This document shows positions 185 through 26,065 of a DNA stretch of 26,065 nucleotides, in pieces. Within the stretch, counting starts at the first letter, position 1; the number at the start of each line of letters is the position of its first letter. The translations under genes were made by a program, and so were the position numbers. The DNA comes from a virus, in IMG/VR virus record IMGVR_UViG_3300017917_003070, positions 1 through 26,065 of that record; one strand, 5' to 3'. The notes below the pieces were generated by a model. That model was not told the DNA's origin and did not search any database. It was given only the letters and a program-made list of their open reading frames with translations.

Positions 185-661
185 TTATAATGTATGAAGG
201 AGAGCATTAGGGGCAAAGTCTTTTTTGAAAAACTTACCTAACACATTATCATTATAACTATTTACAAATAATACATTATACTTACACTGATAGGCAGTTT
301 CCCAATAAGTAAGTTCTTTTTTAGTTCTTACTAGTTTAATAATTTTTCTAGTAAATGCTAAGTTACCTTTAGATTTTATTTCTTCTAATATTTCCTTGTT
401 AGAACCCCAATATGTAGCCCAATCAGATTCTTTTTGTACTCTTTTAGTAGTAGCTTTTCTACCAGGACCAGATTGTTCTGCTAGTTCTTTTTTGGTAAGT
501 TTTTTCTTTACATTATGATAAAGACTTTTTTTACCAATGTAAAACTTACCTGTTATTGTGTTTTTGATTTCATAAATAAAACCAAAACATTCTTGTGGAA
601 AATCTTCTATTGTTTTAAATTCTTTGACTTCCACATTTTCATACCAAAACCAATTATTCAT
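185..661 (-). CDS. GIY-YIG endonuclease (SegE-like, possible homing nuclease)
   Basis: A 158-aa protein with the two motifs of the GIY-YIG nuclease fold: GFIY at residues 27-30 and FYIG at 40-43. These are followed by YWGS at 84-87 and a candidate metal-binding Glu121 in WETAYQ. The residues SDWATYWGSNKEI and the YWE motif resemble the T4 SegE type of free-standing homing endonucleases, which cut unoccupied sites and spread by repair. No clear extra DNA-binding domain is seen beyond a Lys-rich stretch at 52-77. It sits between the tail genes (3 nt after the 280-aa gene) and the primase gene (3 nt before), as expected for an inserted selfish gene. It could instead serve a phage repair or host-degradation role. 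Confidence 0.8.
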   Translation of the reverse strand: MNNWFWYENVEVKEFKTIEDFPQECFGFIYEIKNTITGKFYIGKKSLYHNVKKKLTKKELAEQSGPGRKATTKRVQKESDWATYWGSNKEILEEIKSKGNLAFTRKIIKLVRTKKELTYWETAYQCKYNVLFVNSYNDNVLGKFFKKDFAPNALLHTL

Positions 662-16569: not shown

Positions 16570-17277
16570 TTATGGGAAATTTGTATACCCGTTCTCCAAA
16601 TAGAAATAGTAATGTTCTTTAAACATATCATATAGTTTATTTGCTATTTTAGTGATTTTAGGAGTTTTAACATCAATTATTTCTCGAATGTATATATATA
16701 ATGCTTTTTTATTAAATATTTCTATACTTTCTCTTCTACGAAATAATTCCAAAATTGCGTCAGCTATTTTAGCGTCACTTTCTTTAGGGAATAATTTATA
16801 TATATTTTTAGAACAATATCCTGTAAATTCATCTAAAAATAAAGAAAGTTTATCTGTAGGATCATCTAATGAATAACTATATTTTTCATCTGATTCAAGT
16901 TCTTCAATTGGGGCTTTATCTACTCGTTTTTTATAATTTTTAGTGTTAGAAATAATTAAATAACGTTTAGCAATAGTTCCAAAATATGAGTATGCTTTAG
17001 CTCCTTTATCTGGGTTGAATAAATGGATTTTAGAAAGTAAAAATGAAATTACTTCATGTTGTAAATCCTCAATATTATCTACTTCAGTATAATAGAATTT
17101 AAAAGTATGAATAATATTTTCTGTTAGTTTAAAAAATGCATAATGAATACGCTCACGATATATTTTATCTCTCACATCATAATCTAAAGTATTATTATAT
17201 TCAATAATAGCATTTTCTGTTTCTTGAGTGAAATACATTCCACTTGTTTTAGGTTTTACAACCACCTCACTACTCAT
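16570..17277 (-). CDS. 55: Late transcription sigma factor, gp55-like
   Basis: A 235-aa protein with a sigma-70 region-2-like core. Residues about 68-110 (IEDLQHEVISFLLSKIHLFN, PDKGAKAYSYFGTIAKRYLI) match the pattern of T4 gp55, where a 'K-x-E-M' helix is followed by 'FD..K..NP.AYI......AF'. gp55 replaces host sigma on RNA polymerase and directs it to late promoters, with help from the sliding clamp. Length is somewhat above T4 gp55 (185 aa). No region 4 is seen, so it should read only a -10 type element. It is the last gene of an overlapping operon (ATGA overlap with the membrane-protein gene) and lies just before the baseplate genes it probably activates. An alternative is another small sigma-like regulator. 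Confidence 0.78.
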   Translation of the reverse strand: MSSEVVVKPKTSGMYFTQETENAIIEYNNTLDYDVRDKIYRERIHYAFFKLTENIIHTFKFYYTEVDNIEDLQHEVISFLLSKIHLFNPDKGAKAYSYFGTIAKRYLIISNTKNYKKRVDKAPIEELESDEKYSYSLDDPTDKLSLFLDEFTGYCSKNIYKLFPKESDAKIADAILELFRRRESIEIFNKKALYIYIREIIDVKTPKITKIANKLYDMFKEHYYFYLENGYTNFP

Positions 17278-20252: not shown

Positions 20253-20444
20253 TTAATCTTTTAGATTATCATACTTACAGCATGTCAAATAATAATCAAT
20301 AATGTTCTCTTTAGAAACATTAATTCCTTTATGTAATGTTCTAGTAACCACCACCCACAACTCGTCTATGTGGGTGGTAATTGGTTCTAGATTCAGCTCT
20401 TTGTTTATTAGCTGATGTAAATCTTGTTTACTATTAAGCTGCAT
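20253..20444 (-). CDS. Small protein overlapping the DUF932-like gene (63 aa)
   Basis: A 63-aa protein beginning MQLNSKQDLHQLINKELNLE when started at 20444, which gives an 11-nt overlap with the preceding stop. Starts at 20462 or 20474 would make a longer overlap and are less likely. It is hydrophilic and helical, with two late cysteines (LTCCKYDN), and I do not recognise it. A perfect 10-bp inverted repeat lies inside the gene (20350-20378). It ends 4 nt before the tRNA-Leu-like gene, so it shares the transcript of the DUF932-like gene and the tRNAs. Confidence 0.55.
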   Translation of the reverse strand: MQLNSKQDLHQLINKELNLEPITTHIDELWVVVTRTLHKGINVSKENIIDYYLTCCKYDNLKD

Positions 20445-21234
20445 ATTCAACTGCAAGTTCATATAGTTTAGCATTCAAATCAAGGTCTTGTTTAAAGTTC
20501 TTAATTTTTCTTGCTTTACGCAACTTAGTACCTGATGTGTATTCAAACATACCATGTACTAGTTTCTCTTGAACTACATTAAATACACTCCACAAATCAT
20601 TACCATTATCTTCAGGACGAGTTGGTGTAACCAAATCATCAAAATCAATTGTAATGTTTTCTAGTTGTTCAACTCCAAATCGAATTGCAGCTGCTTTTTT
20701 AGCAAACTCAGCAATCTGTTCTTTACGAAGTTTCTTCTTCTTAAATTGATTCATTGATTCAACTGTCAGTGGAAGTTTTTCAACCATTGTACCAATAACA
20801 TTCTTCAATTCTTCAAAATCATATCCGTAGTGACGAATTTTAAGATTTTCAAATTCCTTAGAGCAAATAACCAAACCATTCTCACACACCATACGGAACA
20901 AACCAGCTGTGAAAGTAAATGCATTTTTACCATCATGGCTATTAGTTAATAGAATCTGTGGGTAAGCATGATCACCATCTTCACCATTAATGACAATATC
21001 ATTATTACGGAACACAACTAGGTGTTTTTGGTAACCATCACCTTTGCGGGCGCGTACTTCTTTTGCGTCAACTACTCCCCAACCTAGCTTTTCCATATCC
21101 TGAATGATTTGGAAGGTTGAAATGTGAGCATATTTTTCACTAGTGCCTGGAGCACCTTTAGCTGTGAAGATTGATTTTGCTTTGTCTTTGATTTCTGACT
21201 CTGTCAAAAATGTGTTGCTTTCAATGTTTAACAT
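20434..21234 (-). CDS. DUF932 / phage-plasmid-like protein
   Basis: A 266-aa protein resembling the DUF932 (phage/plasmid-like, TIGR03299) family. Family-like features include YPQILLTNSHDGKNAFTF and LFRMVCENGLVI at about 112-123, followed by a helical C-terminal half (ESMNQFKKKKLRKEQIAEF; VVQEKLVHGMF). The family is widespread in phages and plasmids and its molecular role is unknown; links to DNA replication or recombination modules are often noted. The gene has its own cassette promoter at 21270-21303 and an ATAAAGGTTATG start region. Base composition is less AT-rich than the structural genes. Confidence in the family is moderate to high; in function, none. Confidence 0.75.
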   Translation of the reverse strand: MLNIESNTFLTESEIKDKAKSIFTAKGAPGTSEKYAHISTFQIIQDMEKLGWGVVDAKEVRARKGDGYQKHLVVFRNNDIVINGEDGDHAYPQILLTNSHDGKNAFTFTAGLFRMVCENGLVICSKEFENLKIRHYGYDFEELKNVIGTMVEKLPLTVESMNQFKKKKLRKEQIAEFAKKAAAIRFGVEQLENITIDFDDLVTPTRPEDNGNDLWSVFNVVQEKLVHGMFEYTSGTKLRKARKIKNFKQDLDLNAKLYELAVEYAA

Positions 21235-21269: not shown

Positions 21270-21303
21270 CTAAATATAACATCCTTTTCCTGTGAAGCCA
21301 AGC
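21270..21303 (-). promoter_or_regulatory. Cassette promoter of the DUF932-like gene
   Basis: On the minus strand, CTTGGCTTC is followed after the 20-nt spacing by TATATTTAG, with GATGT directly before it. It is nearly identical to the copy at 21827-21860. The start codon is 36 nt beyond the -7 box, longer than the usual 24. The TTTG box is CTTG here. The stop of the AT-hook gene is 6 nt from it. Confidence 0.8.
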
Positions 21304-21640: not shown

Positions 21641-21805
21641 TTATATGATAAATAATGATGTCAAAATCCAATAAAATATGATCTGAATAGCATACCATAT
21701 ACCTTGGGATTTAAGTGACAAATCTTCATTTTTCTTTTTGGCTTCAATGCGTACATGTGATACTGCGCAATATGCCATCCAAATATATGCTGCTGTTGCT
21801 ATCAT
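21641..21805 (-). CDS. Small two-helix membrane protein (54 aa)
   Basis: A 54-aa protein reading MIATAAYIWMAYCAVSHV, then a charged loop EAKKKNEDLSLKS, then GIWYAIQIIFYWILTSLFII. Two hydrophobic segments with a basic, probably cytoplasmic, loop make a hairpin membrane protein. The start at 21805 stands 22 nt beyond the -7 box of promoter 21827-21860, matching the other cassettes. The size and topology are compatible with a holin-like or superinfection-exclusion peptide, but the sequence gives no proof. Confidence 0.65.
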   Translation of the reverse strand: MIATAAYIWMAYCAVSHVRIEAKKKNEDLSLKSQGIWYAIQIIFYWILTSLFII

Positions 21806-21826: not shown

Positions 21827-21860
21827 CTAAATATAACATCCCTTTCCTGTGAAGCCAAGC
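21827..21860 (-). promoter_or_regulatory. Cassette promoter of the membrane/AT-hook gene pair
   Basis: On the minus strand, CTTGGCTTCAC is followed 20 nt after CTTG by TATATTTAG with GATGT before it. It differs from the 21270 copy at only a few positions. The start codon of the 54-aa gene is 22 nt beyond the -7 box. Confidence 0.8.
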
Positions 21861-23649: not shown

Positions 23650-23683
23650 ATGAATATACGTATATACTCTGTTGATGCCAAAA
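23650..23683 (-). promoter_or_regulatory. Cassette-type promoter of the hydrolase pair
   Basis: On the minus strand, TTTTTGGC is followed exactly 20 nt after TTTG by TATATTCAT. It shares box and spacing with the other promoters but lacks the conserved GATGT before the -7 box. The start codon is 21 nt downstream of the box. Confidence 0.6.
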
Positions 23684-23917
23684 ATTTTTATAAAAGAGAG
23701 ATTTTGGGTTTTACCATTTGTGGTGCAAAGGGGTAGTTTGGAAATTGGAGGTGTGTTGTGGAGCGTATATATGTATATACAATCGGCGCGCAAAGATCGT
23801 ATACGATCTGTTTTGTGGTCATTCACGCAGGAAGATCAAGTATCCGGTTATATGGACCATAACGCGCATGGGAGCGTAATATACACATACCGTATATGTA
23901 CGTACCGTGTACTGCGG
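23684..23917. other. Palindrome-rich non-coding region
   Basis: About 230 bases without a supported gene. It contains a perfect 16-bp palindrome (AGATCGTATACGATCT, 23794-23809) with two GATC sites, an inverted repeat GTATATA-TG-TATATAC at 23765-23780, GGCGCGC/GCGCGC strings and GTACGTAC with related GTAC steps near 23898-23910. It ends in the stem TGCGGC-TAA-GCCGCA (23913-23927), whose loop holds the stop codon of the next upstream gene. It has more GC and alternating purine-pyrimidine runs than the rest. It could be a regulatory hub, a replication origin or a methylation/restriction-related site; none is proven. Confidence 0.5.
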
Positions 23918-24181
23918 CTAAGCCGCAAGATTACTTTTTACCAACCTCACAAATTCATTTATCTTGTCAGCATCGGCTTTACTTTCATCACACGCCCATT
24001 TTAAAACATCAGCGTAATGTGATGAACGATGATAGTCAATCATGTCATCATATGTTTTGAAGTTGGGTTTAGAAAACGTTACATATGAGCCATCAGCATC
24101 ATCTGAAATTTGGTAACCGAGTGCTTCAACGAATGCATAAACTGATTTGTTGATGTGTTTTTTCTGTTCTGTCTTTGTCAT
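23918..24181 (-). CDS. Small cassette protein (87 aa)
   Basis: An 87-aa unknown protein started at the ATG at 24181, which is 24 nt beyond the -7 box of its promoter and follows the common AACACATG leader. A TTG three codons upstream is not needed. Basic N-terminus (MTKTEQKKHINKSVYAFVEAL), then GYQISDDADGSYVTFSKP and a C-terminal helix rich in charge (WACDESKADADKINEFVRLV). No membrane segment or known motif. Its stop lies in a hairpin (23913-23927). It may be a host-takeover or anti-defence protein, as often found in such arrays, but nothing identifies it. Confidence 0.62.
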   Translation of the reverse strand: MTKTEQKKHINKSVYAFVEALGYQISDDADGSYVTFSKPNFKTYDDMIDYHRSSHYADVLKWACDESKADADKINEFVRLVKSNLAA

Positions 24182-24204: not shown

Positions 24205-24238
24205 CTGAATATAACATCAAGGTTGGGCGAGGCCAAAC
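24205..24238 (-). promoter_or_regulatory. Cassette promoter (87-aa gene)
   Basis: On the minus strand, GTTTGGCCTCGCCC is followed 20 nt after TTTG by TATATTCAG with GATGT directly before it. The -7 box is 24 nt from the start codon, and the previous gene's stop is 6 nt before the -33 side. Confidence 0.85.
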
Positions 24239-24244
24239 ATAGAG

Positions 24245-24403
24245 TTAAGCTTCTAATCTTTCAGAAGCAACCACATAATCAAATTTCACTATTCCAGCGT
24301 ATGTCTTACCTTTAAAGCTGTAGTGGTTTAAACCAGCATCCAAACCATCATAAGTAAATGCTGTTACCAATTCTGTGCCTACATATCCCTTTGTTACTGT
24401 CAT
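24245..24403 (-). CDS. Small cassette protein (52 aa)
   Basis: A 52-aa frame reading MTVTKGYVGTELVTAFTYDG, then LDAGLNHYSFKGKTYAGIVK and FDYVVASERLEA. It is mostly beta-like, near neutral, without membrane segments or Cys. Its start is 25 nt beyond the -7 box of promoter 24428-24461, and its stop is 6 nt before the next promoter. This promoter spacing, rather than similarity, is what supports it as a real gene. Function unknown. Confidence 0.6.
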   Translation of the reverse strand: MTVTKGYVGTELVTAFTYDGLDAGLNHYSFKGKTYAGIVKFDYVVASERLEA

Positions 24404-24427
24404 GTTATTACTATTTTTAATTATGAA

Positions 24428-24461
24428 CTAAATATAACATCCTCCCCTCACGAAGCCAAAC
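24428..24461 (-). promoter_or_regulatory. Cassette promoter (52-aa gene)
   Basis: On the minus strand, GTTTGGCTTCGTG is followed 20 nt after TTTG by TATATTTAG with GATGT before it. The start codon is 25 nt from the -7 box, and the 54-aa gene ends 1 nt before it. Confidence 0.85.
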
Positions 24462-24462
24462 C

Positions 24463-24627
24463 TTAGGCTATGTTATCGTTTTCTAAGGTTTCGATGGTTA
24501 CGTTAAGTACACCTCTCAAATAACCAATGATCCAATCTTTACTATCACCATTCATACACATTGTGTCTACTTCGTTGATTTGGTTCTTCAACATTCCAGC
24601 TAAAATTGTCTTGTTACTTTTGTTCAT
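24463..24627 (-). CDS. Small cassette protein (54 aa)
   Basis: A 54-aa frame reading MNKSNKTILAGMLKNQINEV, then DTMCMNGDSKDWIIGYLRGV and LNVTIETLENDNIA. It is helical with a short acidic end and one Cys, and I do not recognise it. The start follows AATAAGTAACACATG and is 24 nt beyond the -7 box. The stop is 1 nt before the next promoter. A small soluble helical protein with a binding rather than catalytic role seems likely, by size only. Confidence 0.6.
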   Translation of the reverse strand: MNKSNKTILAGMLKNQINEVDTMCMNGDSKDWIIGYLRGVLNVTIETLENDNIA

Positions 24628-24650
24628 GTGTTACTTATTTTTAATTATGA

Positions 24651-24684
24651 CTAAATATAACATCAGGGCCGGGCGAGGCCAAAC
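24651..24684 (-). promoter_or_regulatory. Cassette promoter (54-aa gene)
   Basis: On the minus strand, GTTTGGCCTCGCCC is followed 20 nt after TTTG by TATATTTAG with GATGT before it. The -7 box is 24 nt from the start codon. Confidence 0.85.
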
Positions 24685-24690
24685 AGGAGG

Positions 24691-24876
24691 TTAATCACGA
24701 TAACGTTGAGCGTATCGTTTTATTACCTCACTGCACTCATCTAAAGTCAAGCTATCAGCTAATCTGATCACCTCATCAGCGGTTTCATGATCACATTCAC
24801 CGTAAGCGTTAATCATGTCGTTACACTTGATCTGTAAATCAATTACTCTGTTAATCAAATCTTCTCTCATGTTCAT
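24691..24876 (-). CDS. Small acidic cassette protein (61 aa)
   Basis: A 61-aa protein reading MNMREDLINRVIDLQIKCND, then MINAYGECDHETADEVIRLA and DSLTLDECSEVIKRYAQRYR with a final Asp. It is a helical, acidic protein with three Cys (C18, C28, C48) that are not in a tight metal-site pattern. Start at 24876 lies 17 nt beyond the -7 box, the shortest spacing of the array, and follows AACACATG. The second Met (residue 3) is an alternative start. Function unknown. Confidence 0.62.
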   Translation of the reverse strand: MNMREDLINRVIDLQIKCNDMINAYGECDHETADEVIRLADSLTLDECSEVIKRYAQRYRD

Positions 24877-24892
24877 GTGTTTTTAATTATGG

Positions 24893-24926
24893 CTAAATAT
24901 AACATCCCTCTCCCACAAGGCCAAAC
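24893..24926 (-). promoter_or_regulatory. Cassette promoter (61-aa gene)
   Basis: On the minus strand, GTTTGGCCTTGTG is followed 20 nt after TTTG by TATATTTAG with GATGT before it. A terminator palindrome (24931-24946) sits just before its upstream end. Confidence 0.85.
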
Positions 24927-24930
24927 AGAA

Positions 24931-24946
24931 GGGCACCTAGGTGCCC
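24931..24946 (-). terminator. Palindromic terminator-like hairpin
   Basis: GGGCACCTAGGTGCCC, a perfect 16-bp palindrome (6-bp stem with CTAG loop), followed on the minus strand by TTCTGTTT. It lies 31 nt after the stop of the 147-aa gene and 4 nt before the next promoter, and would separate these two transcription units. The T run is short, so it may be partial. Confidence 0.6.
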
Positions 24947-24977
24947 AAACTGCTCATAATTAAAAATAACACACACA

Positions 24978-25421
24978 CTATACTTTCTTCATAAACTGAA
25001 TCACATTTGTTGCTTCATCAAAAACTGAATCATCATCTGTCTCAAATGCGTCTTCTATATTAGAAATAATTTCACTGTAAATACTATCATCATCTACTTC
25101 AACTTGTAGTTCTCGACCGTACAAACCAAATTCAACATATGACTCTATATCCACACCTGATCCTTTAATTGCTTCTTTAGCCGCTTCTAATGCTCGTTCT
25201 TGAATTGTACGAGTATATTCAATCAATGAATCTTTTGTGAACACAGCTGCTACTATACTTTTACCTCGTTCTAACTCAACAATATCACCTTGGGGTGTTA
25301 ACTGTTTAATCATTTGGTCTCGCATCCCTACTTCATTGATGATGCGTTCCATTGTTTCACCATCCAATTCGATTTCTTTTAAAGCCGCAATTACAATCGG
25401 CACAATACTTTTGTTTATCAT
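24978..25421 (-). CDS. Acidic cassette protein (147 aa)
   Basis: The largest gene of the array (147 aa), unrecognised. The N-terminal part (SIVPIVIAALKEIELDG, ETMERIINEVGMRDQMIKQL) is helical. The middle VELERGKSIVAAVFTKDSLI and ALEAAKEAIKGSG suggest an alpha/beta domain. The end is strongly acidic (VEVDDDSIYSEI, EDAFETDDDSVFDEA), which could mimic nucleic acid or bind a basic host protein; that is inference. Start at 25421 follows GACACATG and is 24 nt beyond the -7 box. It is the only array gene followed by a terminator-like palindrome. Confidence 0.65.
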   Translation of the reverse strand: MINKSIVPIVIAALKEIELDGETMERIINEVGMRDQMIKQLTPQGDIVELERGKSIVAAVFTKDSLIEYTRTIQERALEAAKEAIKGSGVDIESYVEFGLYGRELQVEVDDDSIYSEIISNIEDAFETDDDSVFDEATNVIQFMKKV

Positions 25422-25444
25422 GTGTCTTAATTATTTATTTATAT

Positions 25445-25478
25445 CTGAATATAACATCCTTCCCCCACGAAGCCAAAC
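25445..25478 (-). promoter_or_regulatory. Cassette promoter (147-aa gene)
   Basis: On the minus strand, GTTTGGCTTCGTGG is followed 20 nt after TTTG by TATATTCAG with GATGT before it. The preceding gene's stop is 1 nt away. Confidence 0.85.
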
Positions 25479-25479
25479 C

Positions 25480-25719
25480 TTAGTTCAAAATGAATTTATT
25501 TTCTCTGATGAACTTGTTTATCGCTTTCAAAGCACTCTCACATGCTGCTTGATGCATCTTTAGTTCCATCATCTGTTCAATGATTTCTTCTGATTCAGAA
25601 TATGAAATAGGTTGATCAAGTTCTTGACTGCACAACGTAAGTTGTTCTTGTGCTTCCTGAATTCCTTCTTTGGCTAATTTTGCCATTTCAATGGCGTCAA
25701 TCATTACTAGATATTTCAT
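25480..25719 (-). CDS. Helical cassette protein (79 aa)
   Basis: A 79-aa protein reading MKYLVMIDAIEMAKLAKEGI, then two long helices with coiled-coil character (EAQEQLTLCSQELDQ and SEEIIEQMMELKMHQAACESALKAI), and a basic end NKFIRENKFILN. The helix pair is joined by a PISYSES turn, so a helical hairpin is likely. Start is 24 nt beyond the -7 box. No family recognised; it might bind a host protein. Confidence 0.63.
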   Translation of the reverse strand: MKYLVMIDAIEMAKLAKEGIQEAQEQLTLCSQELDQPISYSESEEIIEQMMELKMHQAACESALKAINKFIRENKFILN

Positions 25720-25742
25720 GTGCTAACGTTTTTTAATTATGA

Positions 25743-25776
25743 CTAAATATAACATCCTTCTCCCGTGAGGCCAAAC
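25743..25776 (-). promoter_or_regulatory. Cassette promoter (79-aa gene)
   Basis: On the minus strand, GTTTGGCCTCACGG is followed 20 nt after TTTG by TATATTTAG with GATGT before it. The stop of the 82-aa gene is 6 nt before its upstream end. Confidence 0.85.
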
Positions 25777-25782
25777 AAGTGG

Positions 25783-26031
25783 TTACACCCACATGTCATA
25801 AGCATACATCTCTCTTGAGTTATGATCTGCAGTTACTACTAAACCATCACCGCATATCTCTTGGAGTTCCTTAATCCCCACACTAGTGAAAACATAAGCA
25901 GCCCACTCATCATTCCTCTTAGCTACTACCCTACCACTTAAACCTGGTAGTGGATGAGGCATATATACTGGTTTGAAGTTCTTTGATTTACGAATTGCTG
26001 AAACGTACTTGTGAAATGAATTCATTGCCAT
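25783..26031 (-). CDS. Small cassette protein (82 aa)
   Basis: An 82-aa protein, unrecognised. Basic N-terminus (MAMNSFHKYVSAIRKSKNFK), then VYMPHPLPGLSGRVVAKR and a beta/alpha part DEWAAYVFTSVGIKELQEI, ending in ADHNSREMYAYDMWV. The start at 26031 is 26 nt beyond the partial -7 box at the window edge; Met3 (26025) would give 32, outside the usual range, so Met1 is preferred. Function unknown. Confidence 0.62.
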   Translation of the reverse strand: MAMNSFHKYVSAIRKSKNFKPVYMPHPLPGLSGRVVAKRNDEWAAYVFTSVGIKELQEICGDGLVVTADHNSREMYAYDMWV

Positions 26032-26056
26032 ATCTTTATGTGTTTTTAATTTATAT

Positions 26057-26065
26057 CTGAATATA
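26057..26065 (-). promoter_or_regulatory. Partial cassette promoter at window edge (-7 box only)
   Basis: The minus strand starts with TATATTCAG, the -7 element of the array promoters, 26 nt before the 82-aa gene. The TTTG box would lie just outside the window. Confidence 0.6.

Follow-up and report, generated by a model that had tools for sequence, protein, structure and literature searches.

The stretch of DNA analysed here, referred to below as the window, is the entire 26,065-base virus fragment IMGVR_UViG_3300017917_003070 of IMG/VR (30% G+C); it carries a T4-like tail block, two tRNA genes, a DUF932 gene and small open frames (see Table 1). The focus of the present work is a short element repeated between these small genes. 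Seven of them, lying in a row from 26031 down to 23918, had been described in the initial annotation as an array of tiny genes, each behind a near-identical promoter, and all seven are present; six are preceded by a complete element, and that of the seventh is cut at 26065.

The consensus of the element in the window is TTTGGCYTN12GATGTTATATTYAG (33 bp, minus strand). A scan of the window with the pattern TTTGGCNTCN10GATGTTATATTYAG, allowing up to 3 mismatches, returns 8 sites, none of them on the plus strand, compared to a mean of 0.01 in dinucleotide shuffles. These are eight complete copies; a further copy is truncated at the edge of the window, and a tenth has diverged from the consensus; indeed, the six complete copies first recognised are all confirmed, and two more complete ones (ahead of the 54-amino-acid (aa) F6 gene and of the DUF932 gene), as well as the divergent one, had been overlooked. 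Every complete copy has the form TTTG (CTTG in two copies)-N20-TATATTYAG, in agreement with the spacing of the -33 promoters of Bacteroidota, and the distance of exactly 20 nucleotides (nt) between TTTG and the -7 box holds in every copy. The regular position of start and stop codons was likewise found as described: start codons lie 16-25 nt past the element and stop codons 1-7 nt ahead of the next one, with the sole exception of a 51-nt gap which contains a terminator-like hairpin.

Table 1. Features of the window and their coordinates, listed from the edge at 26065 downwards.
Feature	Position	Strand	Remarks
Edge-cut element	26057..26065	-	only the TATATTCAG box
Cassette gene 1	25783..26031	-	82 aa (MAMNSFHKYV...); common to G012/G014/G001
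Element copy	25743..25775	-	TTTGGCCTCACGGGAGAAGGATGTTATATTTAG
Cassette gene 2 (F2)	25480..25719	-	79 aa; nearest relative L113, 92% nt
Element copy	25445..25477	-	TTTGGCTTCGTGGGGGAAGGATGTTATATTCAG
Cassette gene 3 (F3)	24978..25421	-	147 aa; nearest relative L113, 82% nt
Terminator-like hairpin	24931..24946	-	GGGCACCTAGGTGCCC; directly before element; sole terminator-scan match in the seven-gene array
Element copy	24893..24925	-	TTTGGCCTTGTGGGAGAGGGATGTTATATTTAG
Cassette gene 4 (F7)	24691..24876	-	61 aa; entire cassette missing from G012/G014
Element copy	24651..24683	-	TTTGGCCTCGCCCGGCCCTGATGTTATATTTAG
Cassette gene 5 (F4)	24463..24627	-	54 aa; nearest relative G012/G014, 95% nt
Element copy	24428..24460	-	TTTGGCTTCGTGAGGGGAGGATGTTATATTTAG
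Cassette gene 6 (F21)	24245..24403	-	52 aa; window only among compared phages
Element copy	24205..24237	-	TTTGGCCTCGCCCAACCTTGATGTTATATTCAG
Cassette gene 7 (F5)	23918..24181	-	87 aa; fold predicted with confidence, pLDDT (predicted local distance difference test) 92.8
Divergent element	23650..23682	-	TTGGCATC / TTTGGCATC...TATACGTATATTCA; TATATAYR in place of GATGT
Element copy	21827..21859	-	first position C; ahead of 54-aa gene
Cassette gene (F6)	21641..21805	-	54 aa; L113 has unrelated F24 at the same place
Element copy	21270..21302	-	first position C; ahead of DUF932 gene
DUF932 gene	20434..21234	-	266 aa; conserved last array member
gp55-like late sigma factor	16570..17277	-	weakly similar to region 2; region 4 unmatched in relatives
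SegE-like GIY-YIG homing endonuclease gene	185-661		Pfam PF19835

In IMG/VR, at least 120 stretches contain the exact form of the element, phages of 142-163 kb among them. In bacterial and archaeal genomes (257 Gb) a single exact match was found, with about 0.9 expected by chance (as calculated from the information of the pattern); this match, located inside a coding gene of a Parcubacteria metagenome-assembled genome, is at chance level and was rejected as a genuine bacterial copy. As far as these sequence searches reach, the element is confined to phages. Its spacing is strict: in all the DNA fetched, the gap from TTGGC to ATGTTATATT is 14 nt in 321 unique places and never 8-13 or 15-29 nt, TTGG stands exactly 18 nt ahead of 294 of the 295 GATGTTATATTYA boxes, and almost no matches are returned by a scan with a spacer one base longer. 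The profile of 455 copies reads GT-TTGGC-YT-N11-GATGT-TATATT(T/C)A-G, with an A-rich leader downstream; the conservation of GGCYTC and GATGT, noticed at first in the window, is borne out by GGCYT and GATGT being kept over hundreds of copies in other phages. Other subclasses keep TTGGC and TATATTTA and have GATGT swapped for TATATAYR or for a T-run, the divergent TATATAYR subclass recurring in the phages G001, G002 and G003.

The copies of each genome lie, all or nearly all, on one strand, and the reversed-pattern controls are empty. In G001, a 163-kb relative with 233 predicted genes, almost all on the same strand, about twenty strong copies are gathered within one 15-kb block, and 25 of its 26 strong copies are intergenic and ahead of a gene, the remaining one overlapping an antisense open frame only; a conservation of the element inside genes, which according to the initial annotation would have spoken against the whole idea, did not occur. 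Across the arrays the start codon typically follows the element at 21-24 nt, about 23. Microcystis phage Mel-JY01 and the 484-kb phage LR756508 have the wedge and sigma genes in common with these phages, and no TTG-N20-TATATTYAG copies were found in them. As for the intergenic stretch 23650-23918 of the window, between the array and the next genes, it contains much palindromic and alternating TATACGTATA-like sequence and holds the divergent element; it may, as one possibility, represent a replication origin.

The window belongs to the T4-like group, as seen from its T4-like baseplate wedge and gp55-like sigma factor. Its baseplate wedge protein is 54-77% identical to those of large IMG/VR phages bearing the same element and 49-51% identical to that of the 160-kb, T4-like Flavobacterium phage immuto (vB_FspM_immuto_2-6A, MW353175, Immutovirus), which is annotated with T4-like gp20 and gp23. 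The DUF932 protein of the window is 98-99% identical to those of G001 and G030, whose baseplate wedges are just 77% and 69% identical; this contrast suggests either recent exchange of, or strong constraint on, the DUF932 gene.

Phage immuto likewise has a DUF932 neighbour and a small-gene array, each gene standing behind TTG-N20-TATMTTTAG; its DUF932, the early gene compared, is however distant (43%), and its 33 copies of TTG-N20-TAT(A/C)TTTA carry TTGC where the window has TTGGC, and TTCN where it has GATGT (TTGC...TTCNTATATTTAG, spacing unchanged). No GATGT-type element was found in immuto, even with two mismatches. Two dialects can be distinguished, TTTGGCYT...GATGT in the window and GTTGCYT...TTCN in the immuto lineage, sharing the 20-nt spacing and the TATATTTA box. 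The pattern of the immuto dialect is found in 38 IMG/VR stretches, immuto's own record included, and its spacing is equally strict (173 copies at one gap, 0 at neighbouring gaps). Loci retrieved with the GATGT pattern contain 289 GATGT and 2 TTC copies, those retrieved with the TTC pattern 0 and 199, and genome-wide listings indicate that the dialects are hardly ever mixed within a genome. The DUF932 tree requires one dialect change (support 96/94); the wedge tree requires two, since it places a pair of TTC-dialect phages among those of the GATGT group, and from the sigma tree the dialect branching is undecided. The dialects as one clean clade, with which the DUF932 tree agrees, are contradicted by the wedge tree; because of this disagreement, what is claimed is that dialects go by lineage, and not a number of origins.

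The content of the arrays differs among relatives by single units. Five related arrays share the order F15-F2-F3-F7-F4-F5-F6-DUF932, in which F7 is missing in G012/G014, F22 lies between F2 and F3 in G013 only, F20 lies between F7 and F4 in L113 and G001, and L113 has F23 ahead of F2 and F24 in place of F6; at the position occupied by F21 in the window only, F19 is found in G012/G014 and nothing in the others. Hybrid promoters are seen at the joints: in G012 the terminator flank of F3 is immediately followed by the F4 gene, and the coding sequences of F4 in G012 and in the window are 95% identical. The nearest relative is not the same all along the array of the window: it is L113 for F2 and F3 (92% and 82%) and G012 for F4, F5 and F6 (95%, 92% and 93%). 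Among 284 units, a similar spacer accompanies the same upstream and a different downstream gene in 21% of pairs, and the reverse case gives 11%, against a background of 2%. Finally, several families stand at different places in different phages, the order of gene pairs being consistent in 1339 cases and conflicting in 69. Given these single-unit differences, hybrid promoters, mosaic relatives and moved cassettes, the cassette idea holds. The comparison of gene content which had been suggested thus yields units of one promoter and one gene, present or absent at collinear places and joined within the promoter or at its border, a few of them having moved; for the other half of the initial proposal, in which recombination between the repeats would bring about the exchange, support is only weak (see the breakpoint densities below).

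With respect to the reader of the element, no sigma-like gene other than the gp55-like one was detected in these phages, in which a second sigma factor of their own was sought and not found. Since the gp55-like protein shows no match to region 4, the -33 box would need another sigma factor, presumably that of the host. Ahead of many genes outside the arrays of G001 (163 kb), structural ones included, lies a different motif, ATATTTATA(A). The late promoter of T4 is TATAAATA, and ATATTTATA is its reverse complement; it may serve these phages as a late promoter recognised by the gp55-like sigma factor, the element being presumably of the early type. The gp55-like sigma of G004 (bases 130335-131258), a 345-aa open frame matched in three pieces, has extra internal sequence compared to the about 240 aa of its relatives.

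The primary-sigma promoter of Bacteroidota is of the -33/-7 type, TTTG / TAnnTTTG, refined to TAHHTTTG in F. johnsoniae, where the final G is near-invariant (PMC6847099). The element resembles it in the TTTG and TA..TT boxes and in an A-rich leader of about 23 nt devoid of a Shine-Dalgarno sequence; it differs in the T or C before the final A, in the additional conserved blocks, in the rigid spacing and in that its exact form is no more frequent in bacterial genomes than by chance. Transcription from the Bacteroidota promoter begins 4-5 nt past the -7 box; in the immuto dialect it would start 4-7 nt past TATATTTAG. The host is probably a member of the Bacteroidota, on the grounds of the relatives, of the -33/-7-like promoter and of the A-rich leaders without Shine-Dalgarno sequence.

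Layout, polarity, fixed distance to the start codon and leader all make the element fit a promoter, and it is probable, in our judgement, that these phages use it as a strong promoter of the Bacteroidota -33/-7 type, which heads mobile single-gene units and has diverged into lineage dialects. According to this proposal, the 33-bp element would have been copied before nearly every small accessory gene of the variable region and would most likely be read by the host RNA polymerase early in infection; element, A-rich leader and gene would form a unit with its own transcription and translation start, and exchange joints would fall in or beside the element. Because each unit would bring its own starts, it could be inserted, deleted, replaced or moved without harm to its neighbours. 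Three points weigh against this proposal: the host itself is deduced from sequence; the -7 box TATATTYA ends in A in 99% of the 455 copies, at the place of the G that is near-invariant in F. johnsoniae; and, with homology ends counted per kb at 59 in element zones, 40 at element-free gene starts and 11 elsewhere in the arrays, breakpoints are 5.4x denser at elements than inside genes, but just 1.5x denser than at element-free gene starts, so that the pattern of junctions could in large part be due to selection keeping genes intact. The repeat as the cause of exchange is therefore only weakly supported, and recombination at the repeats would be a conceivable route.

The lack of the host G in the -7 box is also what a polymerase changed by a phage factor, either an activator or a sigma appropriator, would account for, the arrays then being a second ('middle') wave and the dialects marking different factors. 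The complete rigidity of the spacing would be in keeping with such a reader, as would the joint switch of GATGT and TTGGC to TTCN and TTGC between lineages, and the subclasses in which TTGGC and TATATTTA persist and GATGT gives way to TATATAYR or a T-run; the -33 TTTG and the TAnnTT parts match the host consensus, however, and no second sigma factor was detected, activators not having been searched for systematically, and this alternative is considered unlikely. Its extension to the dialects, by which a lineage-specific specificity factor would have led to dozens of promoters being rewritten jointly around a fixed spacing and TATATTTA core, appears equally improbable; if cassettes functioned only in phages of the same dialect, the dialect would limit the partners for accessory-gene exchange. 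The concerted change of dozens of promoters may have come about by selection under a changed reader or by homogenisation through exchange. A more serious, albeit doubtful, alternative is that the promoters are homogeneous by strong selection or gene conversion and that the cassettes are not mobile at all, ordinary gene flux being filtered by the lethality of joints inside genes; the enrichment of homology breaks at element-free gene borders and the common order of most shared cassettes would be expected, and yet hybrid promoters, the same flank and spacer joined to a different gene well above background, families at different places and the different nearest relatives of neighbouring cassettes in the window argue for movement. 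Finally, repeats between genes that are gained and lost like cassettes might recall a recombination or recombinase site (integron-like, or similar to repetitive extragenic palindromes (REP-like)) rather than a promoter. The palindromic recombination site of integron-type cassette arrays has no counterpart here, the element showing neither an internal palindrome nor base-pair covariation in 185 non-redundant copies; together with its fixed polarity and start-codon distance, its -33/-7 layout and A-rich leader, and with the absence of any Rfam match in the region, on which a structured leader RNA was rejected as well, this makes such a site most improbable. A conserved hairpin inside the element, hinted at by copies such as GGCCTTCGGGCC, was rejected on the same lack of covariation.

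The preferred proposal, a mobile unit headed by a promoter of the Bacteroidota type, has its closest known kind in the promoter early stem-loops (PeSLs), which have been described as 'mobile regulatory cassettes' in phages of the T4-like group (Arbiol et al. 2010, doi 10.1093/gbe/evq006; Comeau et al. 2014, doi 10.1093/gbe/evu129; summarised in PMC4503421). A promoter motif in the PeSLs, and a promoter-like one here, is repeated many times between the small genes of a hyper-variable region of a T4-like phage; gene shuffling is linked to the PeSLs and may be linked to the present element, some copies of which have a stem-loop directly before them. An abutting stem of at least 6 bp, ending within 10 nt before TTGGC, is found in 35 of 205 elements (~17%) with 8.5 expected; in the array of the window there is one, and most copies overall are without it. 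A class of fused terminator-promoters comprises 26 unique sites in G001 and other loci, in which the T-run of a hairpin passes straight into TTATATTTA or TTATATTA, as in GGCTTGCAAACGCAAGCCTTTTTTGTTATATTA. In view of the abutting stems and fused hairpins, part of the element family resembles the composite promoter-terminator PeSLs; unlike these, the present elements have an abutting stem-loop in just that ~17% of copies, and they combine a -33/-7 layout of the Bacteroidota type with the longer GGCYT and GATGT blocks, fixed spacing and lineage dialects.

What the cassettes encode is a separate matter. For F2, F4, F5 and F7 pN/pS (nonsynonymous over synonymous change) between relatives is mostly 0.1-0.5; nonsynonymous change being suppressed, the small open frames are real genes under purifying selection. 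The small genes of the window have no confident match in Pfam or PHROGs, and among 89 representative cassette proteins only single members match families, mostly larger enzymes, with no named anti-defence protein; the products had been called unrecognised, and so they appear. A structural search with the confidently predicted fold of cassette gene 7, the best-modelled product, gave no significant match, and the model of cassette gene 3 was too uncertain for a fold search. The host-takeover or anti-defence roles put forward at the outset found no support, either in the family matches of the 89 representatives or in the fold of gene 7, and are speculation.

The exchange of promoter cassettes, known from T4-like phages, is extended by these observations to the widespread and little-studied T4-like phages of the Bacteroidota type; they differ from the PeSLs in the Bacteroidota-type promoter, the strict spacing and the lineage dialects. 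The motif is precise enough for finding the accessory genes of these phages in metagenomes. The existence of two dialects makes it testable how dozens of promoters in one genome change jointly, and whether promoter compatibility restricts gene exchange between phages, a question for which a cultured phage-host pair exists in immuto and Flavobacterium sp. LMO8.

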